64,000 bases of DNA from NCBI GenBank assembly GCA_015063605.1, contig SVTV01000007.1:1-64000 (forward strand). Reading direction: 5' to 3'. Shown piece after piece: positions 12,443 to 18,367 of the stretch. The position numbers and the translations under genes were made by a program. The stretch is from Oscillospiraceae bacterium. GTDB lineage: Bacteria > Bacillota > Clostridia > Oscillospirales > SIG627. The notes below the pieces were generated by a model. It searched no databases, was not told the DNA's origin, and saw only the letters and a program-made list of their open reading frames with translations. How positions within the stretch are numbered: position 1 is the stretch's first letter; each line of letters starts with the position of its first letter.

Positions 12443-13015
12443 TCACATGGCAAAGGCGCACACATATCTTTCTTCCTTAAAGGTAGTTCCATCCTTTGTT
12501 CTCATCAGAAGACTTATCAGAAAAATCCCGTTTTCTTCGTCTGTGAGGGAAAATTTCAGATCATCAAGGGCTATCCTTTCGGAAGGACTTTTCAGGGTGT
12601 TTTTTCCCGAAGGCTCACCCTCCGCCGAAAAAAATGCAATACATACTTCATTTTCTCCGCAAGCAGCACAAAATTCCGTCCCGCCGTACGTAATGGAAAT
12701 ATCCGATGTGCATATAAGGACCTTTCTGCCGCCTACCGATAAAAGCAATGCAGAGCCTGTTCCGTCTTCATCACTATCCGCAATGACAACATCGGATGAT
12801 CTTTCTATCAGATCCGTCAGCGGATCAATCACAGCCGATGTACAGAGATCCCTATCGTGTGAAATAAAAGCTTTTTCAGCGGATCCCGAAAATGCGGCAA
12901 CAAACGAAAACACCGCCGAAAGAACAAGAATTGACAGAGCTGCCGCTACGATGACCTCTATAAGAGTATGACCTTTGGAAAAAGTATCCGTTCTATCCAT
13001 CGGAAGAAAAGCCAT
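12443..13015 (-). CDS. Prepilin-like protein with type IV pilin methylation motif
   Basis: A 190-residue protein with a short basic leader, the prepilin peptidase signature KGHTLIEV (cleavage after Gly 15, Glu at +5) and a long hydrophobic helix (to about residue 40), then a globular part. The Glu+5 is the residue needed for assembly of pilins and pseudopilins. It is the last of three overlapping genes with similar N-termini, so it probably encodes the major or most typical pseudopilin of a small fibre or competence/secretion apparatus. No assembly ATPase, membrane core protein or prepilin peptidase is within the window. Overlaps the preceding gene by 23 nt. ATG at 13015 is preferred (GGAG 9 nt upstream). 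Confidence 0.8.
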   Translation of the reverse strand: MAFLPMDRTDTFSKGHTLIEVIVAAALSILVLSAVFSFVAAFSGSAEKAFISHDRDLCTSAVIDPLTDLIERSSDVVIADSDEDGTGSALLLSVGGRKVLICTSDISITYGGTEFCAACGENEVCIAFFSAEGEPSGKNTLKSPSERIALDDLKFSLTDEENGIFLISLLMRTKDGTTFKEERYVCAFAM

Positions 13016-13313
13016 ATACCTTCACTCCGCCGTATTCCGCTTCTCTGATAATACCATGAAACGAGAATGCGTATTCTCCTTCCTCATCATACACATTGAT
13101 CCTTTCGGCTCTTTCCGTGACCTCTGCATCAAGAGGTTCGTCCGAATAATATGCGGCAATACATTTGTTCACACTATCGATCATATTATGCGTTTTCGCA
13201 CGAATTGCAGAGAGACTGTTGAGCGATACGGTAAAAACGATCAAACACACAAAAAATATAAAGAACGCACATATAACACTTACAAGAGTACTTCCGTTTC
13301 TGCTGTTATTCAT
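12993..13313 (-). CDS. Small prepilin-like protein lacking Glu+5
   Basis: A 106-residue protein. The N-terminus NGSTLVSV followed by a hydrophobic helix (about residues 10-32) has the layout of a prepilin (Gly before a hydrophobic helix), but the +5 position is Ser rather than Glu, as in some minor pilins that cap a fibre (GspK/PilX types). The ATG at 13311-13313 overlaps the stop of the gene before it by 8 nt and its 3' end overlaps the next gene by 23 nt, so the three are one translational unit. Function beyond a minor pilin-like role is not supported. Confidence 0.7.
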   Translation of the reverse strand: MNNSRNGSTLVSVICAFFIFFVCLIVFTVSLNSLSAIRAKTHNMIDSVNKCIAAYYSDEPLDAEVTERAERINVYDEEGEYAFSFHGIIREAEYGGVKVYGFSSDG

Positions 13314-13902
13314 ACAAAGACCAACGCCATTCGCTGTCGGAATCACGATAATCATCCGTATATATCCCATCTGTCATTCTGACAAAGCGAAGCTCTTTCA
13401 TACATTTTTCTTTTCCGGAAAAAGCATATACCGAAACCGTAAGTATAACACCGGGTATTTCGTCTTCTCCGAAATTCGGGCACTCCCAATACATATCGAA
13501 AAACACTTCAACCGATGCATCCGGTAAATCGAATGAAAATGTCCGAACAGATTCATCAAGTCCCTCATCGGAAACTTCGTATCTTTTCCAGTTACCGCCT
13601 CCGTCAATGACTGCACCGTTACCTATCTCATTTTTCAGGTATGCCGCAATGCCGTCATCGGGATATCCTCCGGTATTTATCAAAGAATCGCATATCATGT
13701 CTGCCGCCGAGGAAACGGCAACACCGCAAATATCACGATTCACTTCGGACACTGCATATTCTGTCCTGACAGCAGTCATGGACACCACTAAAACGGACAC
13801 CGTCATGACAAGTGCAAGAACACACATAACGGCACTCACGGCGAAACCGCCGTTAGCATTATTATTTTTTATTGTCTTTATCGGACATAACATTTCAGCC
13901 AC
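13306..13902 (-). CDS. Prepilin-like protein, first gene of the trio
   Basis: A protein of about 195-198 residues with a hydrophilic leader ending NNNANGG, then FAVSAVMCVLALVMTVSVLV as the hydrophobic helix. Gly-Phe at the leader end is prepilin-like, but Glu+5 is again missing. The rest contains many aromatic and acidic residues and no known domain. The start is uncertain: GTG at 13900-13902 or ATG at 13891-13893, neither with a strong SD. It lies 77 nt after the rsmA stop, in the same direction. The three genes are best viewed as minor pseudopilins; a PilX-like role is a guess. Confidence 0.65.
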   Translation of the reverse strand: MAEMLCPIKTIKNNNANGGFAVSAVMCVLALVMTVSVLVVSMTAVRTEYAVSEVNRDICGVAVSSAADMICDSLINTGGYPDDGIAAYLKNEIGNGAVIDGGGNWKRYEVSDEGLDESVRTFSFDLPDASVEVFFDMYWECPNFGEDEIPGVILTVSVYAFSGKEKCMKELRFVRMTDGIYTDDYRDSDSEWRWSLYE

Positions 13903-13979: not shown

Positions 13980-14879
13980 TTATTTTCTGCCGTATTCTTC
14001 GCCCAAAACGGAGCAGATCGCGTCGATTTCCGATAAGGAAAGTGTCTCGCCTCGTCTTTCCGAAGCTATTCCCGCCTTTTCCAGAACGGAAAGCAGCTCC
14101 TCCTTCCGGAATCTGTCGCCAAAGTATGATGTCATGGAATTTATAAGAGTCTTTCGCCTTTGCGCAAATGATGCCCTTATCAGTTCAAAGAAAAGCTTTT
14201 CATCCTTCGGTGTAACGGGTGCTTCCTTATATGGTGTCATCCGTATGACGCTTGAAGTCACCTTGGGTCTGGGCATAAAATTTCCCGCTCCGACATCGAA
14301 GAGCATTTTTATTTTTGCATAATAGCTTGCCGCTGCAGTTACCGAGCCGTAATCCGCATCCCCCGGAGACGCGCACAATCTTTTTGCCACTTCCTTCTGT
14401 ATCATGACCACGGTATCGTCAAAGCATCCGCTTTCAAGAATGTGCAATATAGCCTCGGAGGTAACGGAATAAGGGAGATTTGAGCAAAACACCGTCCTCT
14501 CATTACCGAACTCTTCAGATACAAGCTTTGCTATGTCGGTCTTTAAAGCATCCGCATACACCACCTTAACATTGTCATAAGGCGACAACACATCGGAGAG
14601 CATATCCTTCAAGCCTTCATCCACCTCGATGGAAATGACCTTTTTGAATATTCCGCAAAGTTTTGTTGTAAGACTTCCTATACCGGGGCCTATCTCCACG
14701 CAACAGGCATCGAGCTTTTCAGAAGGCATTCCGTTCGCCGCCTCTATCCCCGCAGATGCAAGAGCTATCCTTTCCGGTATCTTTTCGTTTATCAGAAAAT
14801 TCTGACCGTATTGTTTTTTAAAGGAAAAGCCGTGTTTTTCGCAAAGAGCGGCTATATCCTTGGGTGAATATATATTCAT
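13980..14879 (-). CDS. rsmA: 16S rRNA dimethyladenosine transferase RsmA (KsgA)
   Basis: A 299-residue SAM-dependent methyltransferase that dimethylates A1518 and A1519 near the 3' end of 16S rRNA. Signatures are KKQYGQNFL at the N-terminus, GPGIGSLT (SAM motif I), SNLPYSVTSEAIL (motif IV, NLPY) and the C-terminal helical domain with SFAQRRKTLINSM. Length is normal. The ATG at 14877-14879 has GAGGA 11 nt upstream and fits the family start; an in-frame TTG six codons earlier is less likely. It follows the LytM-like gene by 21 nt. Confidence 0.95.
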   Translation of the reverse strand: MNIYSPKDIAALCEKHGFSFKKQYGQNFLINEKIPERIALASAGIEAANGMPSEKLDACCVEIGPGIGSLTTKLCGIFKKVISIEVDEGLKDMLSDVLSPYDNVKVVYADALKTDIAKLVSEEFGNERTVFCSNLPYSVTSEAILHILESGCFDDTVVMIQKEVAKRLCASPGDADYGSVTAAASYYAKIKMLFDVGAGNFMPRPKVTSSVIRMTPYKEAPVTPKDEKLFFELIRASFAQRRKTLINSMTSYFGDRFRKEELLSVLEKAGIASERRGETLSLSEIDAICSVLGEEYGRK

Positions 14880-14900
14880 TGATCCAAAATTCCTCAAAGC

Positions 14901-16721
14901 TCATTTTCCGAGCATCTCTATTCCGTTAGCGCATGGGTAATAGGGATTTATGCATACGCCGTTTGCAAATACGGCAAACATAACGCTGTTTTTTGTACTG
15001 TATCCCGATTTTCCGAGAGTACCGACACTTTGTCCCTTTGTTACCGTGTCTCCCACTGAAACGGAGATACTGTCAAGATAATAATATACTGTCTTTATTC
15101 CGAAACCGTGATCTATGACTACCGTGTTTCCGGAATACGCATGCTCTCCGGCAAACACTATCTTACCGTTATTGGAAGCGGCTATCCTTTCTCCCGATGA
15201 ATTTGCGGCATATATTATACCGGGGCATCTTATCTTTCCGTTTGTACCGAGGACAGACCATACCGCACCGAAGCGTGTATCTATCCAGGTCGTCTTATCC
15301 GATGTGGGATATACAAAAATACCGCTCCAGAGCTTTTCCTGTATGACCTCCTCATCGAGAGAGGCAAGAAGCTTCTTAAACGAAGCGTATGAATTATTAT
15401 ATTCAGAGGGTGTGCAGCCGTACTTGGTAGAATCCACCGTAAGCGCATTGAACTCTTTGGAGGAAACGTAAAGCTTCAAAACGTTTTCCGTTCCTCTTTC
15501 ACTCGTTACACGTATCGTCTTGTTTCCCGATGCATTTTCGCATGCTATGGGTATCAGAGCGTATCTTGCACCGTTGTAATCGAAAAGCTCAATTGTTTCC
15601 GTGGTTATTATGTCCGATTTTATAGTGAAGTTTTCTTCCTCACCGTTCACCATCTTCAATATGACCAACTCTCCGGGATTCACGGAATAGCTGCTGAGCT
15701 CACAGCTGACCGCCTTGTCATATATGGCATTAAAGCAAAGCTTGAGATTTCCGTGATATTTCTTTGCGTCCTCCGCTCCCGAGGTGTCCTCATACCACTT
15801 TGCCGTGATCTCACCCTTAAGCTTAACATCCTTATCGTATCCGTAAGAGCCGATACCGTCAATGCTTCCCTCATAGATCACCGATCCGCTTTCATTGTAA
15901 AGCTTTATGTAAAGCCAATCGGGGGCAACATCGAAATCAACGGAAAGCTTTATATCATCCGATATGACTATCGTGTCGGACTCCTCCGCTGCTTTTTCGT
16001 TTTTCTCCTCGGTCGTCCTGTATTCACCGTCGGCTATTCTGTAATGCCAATCGTACTCATAGGGAACGAGCTTATTCTTTCTCGCATCCGTAAGCACGGT
16101 AAAAGACGGAAGAGACGGGTTCTCGTAAATATAATCAAGCTCATCCATCAAAAGGAGCTTCATTGCATTTTCCTTGTCGATCCTGTAGCATTCGCCGTTA
16201 TCGTCAACAATGAGACAGTCATACGCCGAATCGGAAAGGTATATATCATACTTGAACTCACGTGCGATCTTGCTTACCTTCAAAGACATCTTCTTGTATT
16301 CCGCAAGGTCGCGTGCGGGATCGCTTATATGCTCGGCATTGTTTATAAGATCTGCAAATCTTTGCAGATCCTCCTCGCTTTCATAGACCTCTTCACCACC
16401 GTTGTAAGAAAATTCGACACGCACAAGCTGGCTCGCCTCTATATTATCGGACAAAAGCTCCTTTATGAAGTTATATGCAATGAATGCGGGAATCGAAAGC
16501 ACAACGAGAACGATAAGATACACTACCCACTTTCTCAGCTTCTTTTTCTTTTTTCTTGTGTATCCCGTACCGTTTGATGAAGCGGGTCTTTTGGGAGCAT
16601 TACCGGATGCCCTTTCGCTTCCCGTAGAGACTCTCTGTCCGTGTGATGTGCTTCTGACGACCGTTTTCCTGCTTTGTTCCCCGGATCTGCCCGTATTTCT
16701 GTTCTGATCGTTGCCTTTCAC
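14901..16721 (-). CDS. Membrane protein with a degenerate LytM/M23 domain lacking zinc ligands
   Basis: A 606-residue protein: a basic, Ser/Arg-rich cytoplasmic tail (1-63), one transmembrane helix (about 66-88), a long extracellular middle part, and a C-terminal LytM (peptidase M23) fold from about residue 485. The fold is clear (GKIVFAG, NTVVIDHGFGIKTVYY, VSVGDTVTKGQSVGTLGKSGYST), yet the catalytic pattern is gone. HxGxD reads CPGII (Cys 499, Ile 503), the His of 'YAHL' is Tyr 548, and HLH reads SVM (579-581). It therefore cannot be a normal zinc endopeptidase and more likely binds or activates others, as EnvC does for amidases or SpoIIQ does in the engulfment channel. The GTG start overlaps the stop of the S24 repressor gene (GTGA), so both are translationally coupled. 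Confidence 0.85.
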   Translation of the reverse strand: MKGNDQNRNTGRSGEQSRKTVVRSTSHGQRVSTGSERASGNAPKRPASSNGTGYTRKKKKKLRKWVVYLIVLVVLSIPAFIAYNFIKELLSDNIEASQLVRVEFSYNGGEEVYESEEDLQRFADLINNAEHISDPARDLAEYKKMSLKVSKIAREFKYDIYLSDSAYDCLIVDDNGECYRIDKENAMKLLLMDELDYIYENPSLPSFTVLTDARKNKLVPYEYDWHYRIADGEYRTTEEKNEKAAEESDTIVISDDIKLSVDFDVAPDWLYIKLYNESGSVIYEGSIDGIGSYGYDKDVKLKGEITAKWYEDTSGAEDAKKYHGNLKLCFNAIYDKAVSCELSSYSVNPGELVILKMVNGEEENFTIKSDIITTETIELFDYNGARYALIPIACENASGNKTIRVTSERGTENVLKLYVSSKEFNALTVDSTKYGCTPSEYNNSYASFKKLLASLDEEVIQEKLWSGIFVYPTSDKTTWIDTRFGAVWSVLGTNGKIRCPGIIYAANSSGERIAASNNGKIVFAGEHAYSGNTVVIDHGFGIKTVYYYLDSISVSVGDTVTKGQSVGTLGKSGYSTKNSVMFAVFANGVCINPYYPCANGIEMLGK

Positions 16722-17434
16722 AGTATCACCTTCCCAACTCCTCTGATATCGTCCGTTTCCTTTATCTCTATCGGCTCATAAGCCTTATTTTCCGATACAA
16801 GAAAGCATTTTCCGCCGCTGTACTCAAGTCTCTTGCAGAGACTTTCTCCGTTAACAATAAATATTCCCACTTCTCCGTTTCCGACAGCCGTATCTCTGTT
16901 GACCCAGACTATGCTTCCATCAGCAATAAGAGGCTCCATACTGTCGCCCTTTATCTTGATGCCGAAGGACGCACCCTCGGGAACGTTCTCGCTGTATGTC
17001 TCGAAATAGTCATCCGTTATGATGGGCAAAGCTGATCCCGCCGCCGCAGGCGCCTCATAAACTATCATATTTCTGCCGTGGCGCTTTGTTTTTTCAAAGC
17101 CGGATGAAAAGCCGCTTTCGTGCTCCGCAATGCTCATAACAGCACTTTTTCCTCTGCTGTCCATAGCTCTGAACATGGCAATAAGCTTTTTTTCATTTTC
17201 GGACAGTGCTTTCGGCTCTTTTATGCCCGATGATCTTTCATCGGATATCAATTCCTCAATGCTCACTCCGAGATATCCCGCTATCCTCGCCGCGGCGGCA
17301 AGTCTTTTTGTATCGGAATCCCTTTTGAGCATACTGTCCAGAGTGGTGTAAGGAATTCCCACAGCCTTGGCAAGCTCCGCTTTTGTTATTCTCTTTTCTT
17401 TTAAAAGATCGTTGATCTTTCGGCTGAAGGACAT
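16718..17434 (-). CDS. XRE-S24 repressor with LexA-type self-cleavage site
   Basis: A 238-residue protein: N-terminal XRE helix-turn-helix (about 4-60, ITKAELAKAVGIPYTTLDSM), a linker, and a C-terminal S24/LexA protease fold. The scissile Ala-Gly is in PAAAGS (132-133), the nucleophile is Ser 165 in GDSMEP and the general base Lys 201 in LCKRLE; spacings match LexA. This is the HdiR/CI type of repressor that cleaves itself when bound to RecA filaments, not LexA itself, whose DNA-binding domain is of another family. ATG 17434 was chosen because AGAGGTG lies 5-6 nt upstream. A 15-bp palindrome next to a -10 box upstream suggests autoregulation. Its stop overlaps the start of the LytM-like gene, which is thus probably the regulated cargo. 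Confidence 0.88.
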   Translation of the reverse strand: MSFSRKINDLLKEKRITKAELAKAVGIPYTTLDSMLKRDSDTKRLAAAARIAGYLGVSIEELISDERSSGIKEPKALSENEKKLIAMFRAMDSRGKSAVMSIAEHESGFSSGFEKTKRHGRNMIVYEAPAAAGSALPIITDDYFETYSENVPEGASFGIKIKGDSMEPLIADGSIVWVNRDTAVGNGEVGIFIVNGESLCKRLEYSGGKCFLVSENKAYEPIEIKETDDIRGVGKVIL

Positions 17435-17456: not shown

Positions 17457-17471
17457 TACGGTCTGACCGTA
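17457..17471. promoter_or_regulatory. 15-bp palindromic operator upstream of the S24 repressor
   Basis: TACGGTCTGACCGTA is a perfect palindrome around its central base. On the minus strand a TATAAT-like -10 lies about 10 nt upstream of it (about 17479-17486), so the palindrome covers the transcription start of the repressor-LytM operon. The obvious binder is the S24 repressor; this is inferred. Confidence 0.7.
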
Positions 17472-17561
17472 TCTGTTTATTATAGTAACATATTTTTTCG
17501 ATTCTGTAAATAGTAATATTACGAAAATTCATAATTTTCATGTGAAATTTAACTTTACATA

Positions 17562-17767: not shown

Positions 17768-18367
17768 ATGATGAGAATTATTACGGGAAAGGCTCGCGGC
17801 ACACGTCTCGATGCCCCCAAAACAGATAAAACACGCCCCACTACCGAAATGGCAAAGGAAGGAGTATTCAGCTCCATACAGTTCGACCTTGAGGGAAGAA
17901 CCGTCCTTGATCTTTTTGCGGGAAGCGGGCAGCTCGGTCTCGAAGCGCTCAGCCGCGGTGCTTCCAAAGCCGTATTCGTTGACAGTGATGCGGAATCCTT
18001 TGAGGTGATAAAGAAAAACGCACAGAAAACGGGGCTTTATGCACAGTGCCGTATTCTGAGAATGGAATACGGTGAATATATAAAGGCGGCTTCAAGAGAA
18101 GGTGCATCCTTTGATTTTATTTTTCTCGATCCCCCCTACCGTGAGACGGTGGTTCCCGAGACAGTAAAAAGGATACTCAAGGCGGGACTTTTAAAGCCCG
18201 GCGGAAGGATCTTCTGTGAATCCGACGATCCGGAGCTTTTCGGAGCGGACAATATAATCCCCGAAAACGAAAGCTTCACGGTAAAGGTCAAGGAGATAAA
18301 GGTGTATAAATACGGAAAAACCTATTTCCATACTGTCTGCGCCGAGCAAAATGAGGCAGACATCTGA
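17768..18367 (+). CDS. rsmD: 16S rRNA (guanine966-N2)-methyltransferase RsmD
   Basis: A 199-residue Rossmann-fold methyltransferase that modifies G966 of 16S rRNA. Seen are RIITGKARG at the N-terminus, RPTTEMAKEGVFSSI, the SAM motif VLDLFAGSGQLGLEALSRGA (about 44-63) and the N6/N2-methylation motif LDPPY (catalytic, about 121-125). Length is normal. Two adjacent ATGs are possible (17768, 17771) after the SD GAAAGG. It is followed after 48 nt by coaD, a pairing common in bacteria. Confidence 0.95.
   Translation: MMRIITGKARGTRLDAPKTDKTRPTTEMAKEGVFSSIQFDLEGRTVLDLFAGSGQLGLEALSRGASKAVFVDSDAESFEVIKKNAQKTGLYAQCRILRMEYGEYIKAASREGASFDFIFLDPPYRETVVPETVKRILKAGLLKPGGRIFCESDDPELFGADNIIPENESFTVKVKEIKVYKYGKTYFHTVCAEQNEADI

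Follow-up and report, generated by a model that had tools for sequence, protein, structure and literature searches.

What does a repressor with the residues of a self-cleaving LexA-like protein control, and why should its gene overlap that of a membrane protein carrying a degenerate wall peptidase domain? These questions were raised by a locus in a 64,000-nucleotide stretch of DNA from an Oscillospiraceae bacterium (contig SVTV01000007.1), referred to here as the window. The original prediction held that a stress signal would cause self-cleavage of the repressor and raise a cell-envelope factor, an SOS-to-cell-wall link. The family-level comparisons below refer to 22 genomes of the host GTDB family. 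Most genomes in the analysis were MAGs, and public records of the relatives, of gut and rumen origin, bear the titles Oscillospiraceae bacterium or Clostridia bacterium.

The repressor and its operon

The repressor start proposed in the original prediction is correct, since relatives begin at the same M-S-F; the reading frame itself stays open beyond it, to 17443. Pfam searches assigned HTH_26/HTH_3 and Peptidase_S24 (3.9e-22) to the protein. Its HTH is of the CI type; LexA_DNA_bind was not among the Pfam domains listed for it, HTH_26/HTH_3 standing in place of the LexA-type winged HTH, and the score against the LexA model TIGR00498 was 42.9 bits, below the cut-off of 110.95. An HMMER alignment with full-length LexA (7b5g) paired PAAAG with VAAG, GDSM with GMSM and CKRL with VKRL, and bore out the predicted Ala-Gly site and Ser/Lys dyad as A132-G133, S165 and K201 (numbered as in the first row of alignment A1, from the M at 17434). 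These residues were unchanged across 15 orthologues, in which PAAAG, GDSMEP and K201 were invariant and the hinge around the site was variable. By its Ala-Gly bond and Ser-Lys dyad, the protein is a putative member of the LexA/S24 self-cleaving repressors. In the genome of the window (96% complete) it is the sole S24 regulator, the other PF00717 match being signal peptidase I.

The overlap between the repressor stop (16718-16720) and the GTG start of the partner (16719-16721) was confirmed, and a Shine-Dalgarno-like stretch, AAGGTGAT, lies shortly 5' of this GTG. An identical 4-bp overlap was found at five other loci (L006, L007, L018, L019 and L021). The repressor was detected in 19 of the 22 family genomes and the partner was adjacent to it in 17, so that the proposed co-conservation of the two genes held. 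The order S24-partner-ksgA recurs in genus g7, and several genera have the operon diverging from a run of rsmD, coaD, mraZ, rsmH, ftsL and a PBP gene (Table 1). Searches for the pair on phages or plasmids returned only partial relatives, of the M23 or CI type.

Table 1. Features of the repressor operon and its surroundings in the window
Feature	Position	Strand	Basis or remarks
Operator O1 (predicted), TTATGAATTTTCGTAA	17519-17534	-	Directly upstream of the -35 box; 15/16 to consensus
Promoter of the repressor operon, sigma-A type (TTTACA-17-TACTAT)	17482-17510	-	Sequence
XRE-S24 repressor	17434-16718	-	238 aa; HTH at residues 9-65; S24 domain
GTGA overlap, repressor stop/partner start (translational coupling)	16718-16721	-	Sequence
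Single-pass membrane protein (partner), 606 aa	16721-14901	-	C-terminal degenerate M23/LytM 501-593 (Pfam Peptidase_M23, 6.1e-22)
rsmA/ksgA	13980-14897	-	Third gene of the operon, 3-bp gap; NCBIfam TIGR00755 2.6e-67
rsmD	17768-18367	+	Divergent neighbour; begins the rsmD-coaD-mraZ-rsmH-ftsL-PBP run

In genus g8 the repressor and the partner are unlinked. At one such locus (genome G012, L112:5001-6809) the repressor is followed by a gene for a VanY-type D-alanyl-D-alanine carboxypeptidase (PF02557, 1.8e-40) with an N-terminal membrane span; as this gene occupies the place of the partner, the envelope theme outlasts a change of partner. Past ksgA, the window contains three small genes (12443-13902; 198, 125 and 190 aa) of pseudopilin-like appearance, the last of which has a weak N-methylation motif. 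They are preceded by a strong promoter, TTGACA-17-TAAAAT (13949-13921, minus strand).

Operators, dinB and LexA in the host family

A palindrome, O1 (TTACGAAATTTCRTAA), was common to the repressor promoters, upstream of the -35 box, and many of them also contained a half site, O2 (TTACGAAAT), 30-34 bp past O1 and inside the -35/-10 spacer. O1 was trained on 5 promoters and tested on 14 others, where it reached a summed score of 180, against 145.2 (sd 3.2, maximum 155) for dinucleotide shuffles. The O1 of the window, scored with a consensus trained on other genera, was the best-scoring site of its own genome, and none of 300 shuffles scored as well. The O2 of the window, in the spacer where the O2 of relatives falls, was weak (5/9), which counts against SOS control.

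A composite consensus of O1, O2 and promoter, derived from repressor promoters without dinB, gave at a score of at least 30 one match in a whole 1.5 Mb genome and zero in five shuffles. When 1340 upstream regions of genus g3 were ranked by it, the top seven belonged to a DUF1492-like gene (34, 34), dinB (33, 33, 32) and the S24 repressor (31, 30), and the rest scored at most 29; the significance of the operator is based on this ranking and on the shuffles. The dinB genes encode a Y-family polymerase (IMS, PF00817, 6e-38), and their promoters in G008, G013 and G002 bear the O1/O2 element, that is, in all three g3 genomes in which dinB was seen. The three promoters differ in sequence and keep the O1/O2 architecture, but because they are orthologous they are not fully independent. 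One operator would thus serve the repressor's own promoter and that of a Y-family polymerase, as for HdiR, in genus g3 only; dinB was located in this genus only, which counts against SOS control for the family. The operator was not found at recA, ruvB, polA, mutS or uvrC in g3, and any regulon would therefore be small. A small set of targets, comprising the repressor's own operon and dinB, under a non-LexA S24 protein is what a minimal SOS regulon looks like, as described for HdiR and UmuDAb (PMC8565304).

Canonical LexA scored above the cut-off in only 2 of the 22 family genomes (G013 and G017), but did so in most of the order outside the family. In G008 the repressor was the sole match to the LexA model, and no other LexA/S24 regulator was found there. 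The presence in G013 of LexA as well as the S24 repressor counts against SOS control by the latter.

In place of DNA damage, the repressor might sense another cue, such as heat, envelope stress or a ligand, and simply autoregulate a local envelope operon, with another protein that has a similar site controlling dinB. This is rather unlikely in our view, but several observations would fit it: HdiR responds to heat too (PMC8565304), no second close O1 site was found in the genome of the window (11 forward matches versus 25 in the reversed control), and the operator lies ahead of the DUF1492-like gene also in genomes in which the repressor was not detected (G016, G017 and G019). The last point weighs against SOS control as well; the missing repressor in G016 is a gap in the bin (see below), and those in G017 and G019 may be gaps likewise. 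The two-part architecture of the repressor promoters at the three top-ranked dinB promoters argues against a second controlling protein, as do the content of G008 and the invariance of the Ala-Gly/Ser/Lys set. Of the predicted SOS-to-envelope link, the SOS half is independently supported by the operator before dinB in three related genomes, the lack of canonical LexA in most family genomes and the invariant cleavage residues; as to the envelope half, the partner may act on division or the wall.

Further sites were noted in the course of the operator searches. The DUF1492-like protein (~165 aa, with a C-terminal HTH; L160:1612-2103, L157:858-1394, L150:1616-2095 and L275:380-898) has the strongest O1/O2 elements of g3, and near the end of contig C78 of G006 (L296:9588) an O1/O2 element precedes a cut-off gene. 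The g3 dinB loci (L279:6432-8660; L282:8844 onward; L283:8151 onward) stand immediately ahead of the spoIIIA operon and are read in the same direction (in G008, 49 bp ahead of spoIIIAA), so that a damage-type operator precedes a sporulation channel operon. A conserved TCACGAAATTTCATAA occurs near rex in four g3 genomes (L147:1501, L151:1501, L161:1501 and L162:1501), without O2. In the window, a perfect palindrome, TACGGTCAGACCGTA, lies at 17457-17471, at the 5' end of the repressor transcript near the transcription start; relatives do not have it, and one further good copy in the genome precedes an ABC transporter gene (L034:1501). We rejected this palindrome as a regulon element: with at most 2 mismatches allowed, the genome has 13 sites and the control 2, but 11 of the genomic sites fall inside ORFs.

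The partner protein and the question of sporulation

The partner was analyzed as an AlphaFold2 model (pLDDT 83; N-terminal domain modelled alone, pLDDT 90.6), and its topology was predicted. The predicted layout comprises a basic cytoplasmic tail of ~60 aa, a membrane helix (63-90), an alpha/beta domain (~92-195), Ig-like domains (~200-420), a helical linker and the M23 domain. Over residues 345-606 it matches the peptidoglycan peptidase Pgp3 of Campylobacter, which combines an Ig-like domain with M23 (Z 26.3, 21% identity), and the LytM domain matches those of SpoIIQ (Z 17.4) and EnvC (Z 17.9). Within an N-terminal fragment, an Ig-like match was found at 277-359 (fragment numbering; Z about 10). 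Structural comparison (Foldseek/VIA) of the alpha/beta domain yielded no firm match; a thioesterase-like fold was considered for the N-terminal domain and discarded, since 4q0y alone resembled it (Z 9.4, 101 residues), too weakly for an assignment.

The HxxxD...HxH zinc site of active M23 peptidases is missing from the partner. The predicted loss of all four zinc ligands was confirmed: C-I-Y-S-M stands at the zinc and catalytic positions where the intact relative L010 has His-Asp-His-His-His, so that neither the catalytic His nor any of the four ligands remains. Judging from the homologues compared, this loss is not peculiar to the partner in the window, as at least one zinc ligand is missing in 18 of 19 M23-bearing homologues, L010 being the sole intact one. 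In the L010 protein, which is the G003 partner (L010:1435-3087), the zinc site is complete (H434, D438, H483, H514 and H516) and is either ancestral or the result of a domain swap. Of the 17 family partners encoded next to the repressor, 9 have no M23 domain whatsoever, and the N-terminal half and the coupling are kept. The conserved output is therefore the membrane anchor and ectodomain, not the dead peptidase. The pairing with the repressor accordingly stood, but the dead LytM domain is not the conserved core, since the domain is gone from half of the partners; it is apparently a decaying appendage. Outside the host family the partner occurs without the repressor, and many of these homologues have their own sigma-A promoter, which counts against SOS control.

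As an alternative, the pair could be a sporulation module, with the pseudo-LytM protein joining SpoIIIAH in the manner of SpoIIQ; this was suggested by gene neighbourhood and co-absence. A partner homologue in family f6 comes after spoIIIAF-AG-AH (spoIIIAH is a neighbour in f6 only), one in f19 lies near gerA-type genes, and S24, partner, SpoIIIAH and SpoIIIAE are absent together in three genomes (Fisher 1/1540). The argument from co-absence mostly failed, however: inspection of nearly all of G016 showed that it also has no MetRS, UvrC, TrmD, TyrRS or sigE-region genes, and with such essential neighbours missing its absences are a bin gap, as those in G017 and G019 may be too. The three pair-less genomes are moreover not sisters, all of them have SpoIVA, and g6 and g7 have lost the LytM domain while retaining SpoIIIAH. 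No clear promoters for sporulation sigma factors were found ahead of the lone partner homologues, many of which, like the family operons, have sigma-A types. The partner itself is probably not SpoIIQ, since a separate SpoIIQ-like M23 protein in its own genome (L109) is a better candidate. A sporulation module is accordingly very unlikely. It is likewise very unlikely that the repressor no longer cleaves, keeps its S24 domain for dimerisation only and forms with the partner a relic of a phage repressor region: its closest phage relatives are indeed Streptococcus CI-like repressors (29.6% identity over the full length), but PAAAG, GDSMEP and K201 are invariant amid a variable hinge, and the gene belongs to the single-copy core of the host family and lies outside any prophage.

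Proposed mechanism and related systems

We consider it probable that the repressor is an HdiR-like SOS regulator replacing LexA and that its partner is a candidate damage-induced division or wall factor. The gene pair, its co-conservation, the cleavage residues, the operator common to the promoters and the absence of LexA are observed at the sequence level; binding of the repressor to the operator, its cleavage triggered by RecA and the action of the partner on septum or wall are what we infer from them. The repressor would serve as a LexA of a non-canonical kind: an XRE-S24 protein resembling CI and HdiR, it would have taken over DNA-damage control in a family of uncultured Clostridia in which LexA was mostly lost. 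Two dimers, one on O1 upstream of the -35 box and one on O2 in the spacer, about three helical turns off, would silence its own operon, and in genus g3 the same repressor would also silence dinB and the DUF1492-like gene. Cleavage at A132-G133, triggered by RecA filaments on single-stranded DNA, would then lift repression, and the translationally coupled membrane protein would rise. Its conserved anchor, alpha/beta domain and Ig-like ectodomain, which in half of the species are joined by a pseudo-LytM end that would bind the wall, may act at the envelope, most likely by delaying septation or by adjusting the activity of wall hydrolases for as long as repair lasts.

More tentatively, the S24 repressor may have replaced LexA throughout the family, and the checkpoint effector may be a new SOS division inhibitor, a membrane-anchored Ig-like/pseudo-LytM protein that arose from a wall hydrolase in decay and has no relation to SulA, YneA, SosA, ChiZ or SidA. 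If SOS control by the repressor is true, it would be another independent takeover of this role by a phage-type S24 protein, and, in the literature that we sampled, we know of no earlier one in Clostridia. An envelope protein would here be tied to the repressor itself through translational coupling, and a wall hydrolase domain would first have lost its active site and then have disappeared, with the regulatory coupling retained. The reading offers a testable answer to how LexA-less gut bacteria would control an error-prone polymerase and hold back division once their DNA is damaged.

Like EnvC, NlpD and SpoIIQ, the partner has an M23 fold without zinc ligands on the envelope side; unlike in those proteins, its LytM domain is joined to an Ig-like one, an arrangement also seen in Campylobacter Pgp3, and is dispensable in half of the family. 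S24 proteins exert SOS control where LexA is absent in Acinetobacter (UmuDAb) and in Bacteroidetes, whose repressors are described as non-canonical LexA. The repressor would resemble these in both respects, but they use another operator, and the text consulted reports no coupled envelope gene for them (PMC8565304). HdiR of Lactococcus and Streptococcus is a LexA-like XRE-S24 SOS repressor that targets itself and a umuC homologue (PMC8565304). The repressor in the window probably shares with it the CI-type HTH and S24 domain, Ala-Gly, Ser-Lys, the replacement of LexA, self-control and a Y-family polymerase target (here in g3), but its operon includes a coupled envelope protein; the likeness to HdiR is by description, the identity of ~30% being to Streptococcus phage CI-like proteins.

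The link between SOS and the cell wall, which the original prediction did not recognize from characterized systems, is already known from YneA, SosA, ChiZ and DivS, Gram-positive division inhibitors encoded next to lexA that have one membrane span, an extracytoplasmic end and an association with the wall (PMC6851548). The partner likewise lies beside an SOS-type repressor, with one membrane span and an extracytoplasmic C-terminus in the predicted topology, and part of its family has a wall-associated domain. It differs in being co-operonic and translationally coupled, as opposed to the divergent arrangement in S. aureus, and in being far larger, with an Ig-like and pseudo-LytM ectodomain; this size counts against the proposed reading, and an inhibitor role for the partner is suggested by its resemblance to these small proteins in position and predicted topology.
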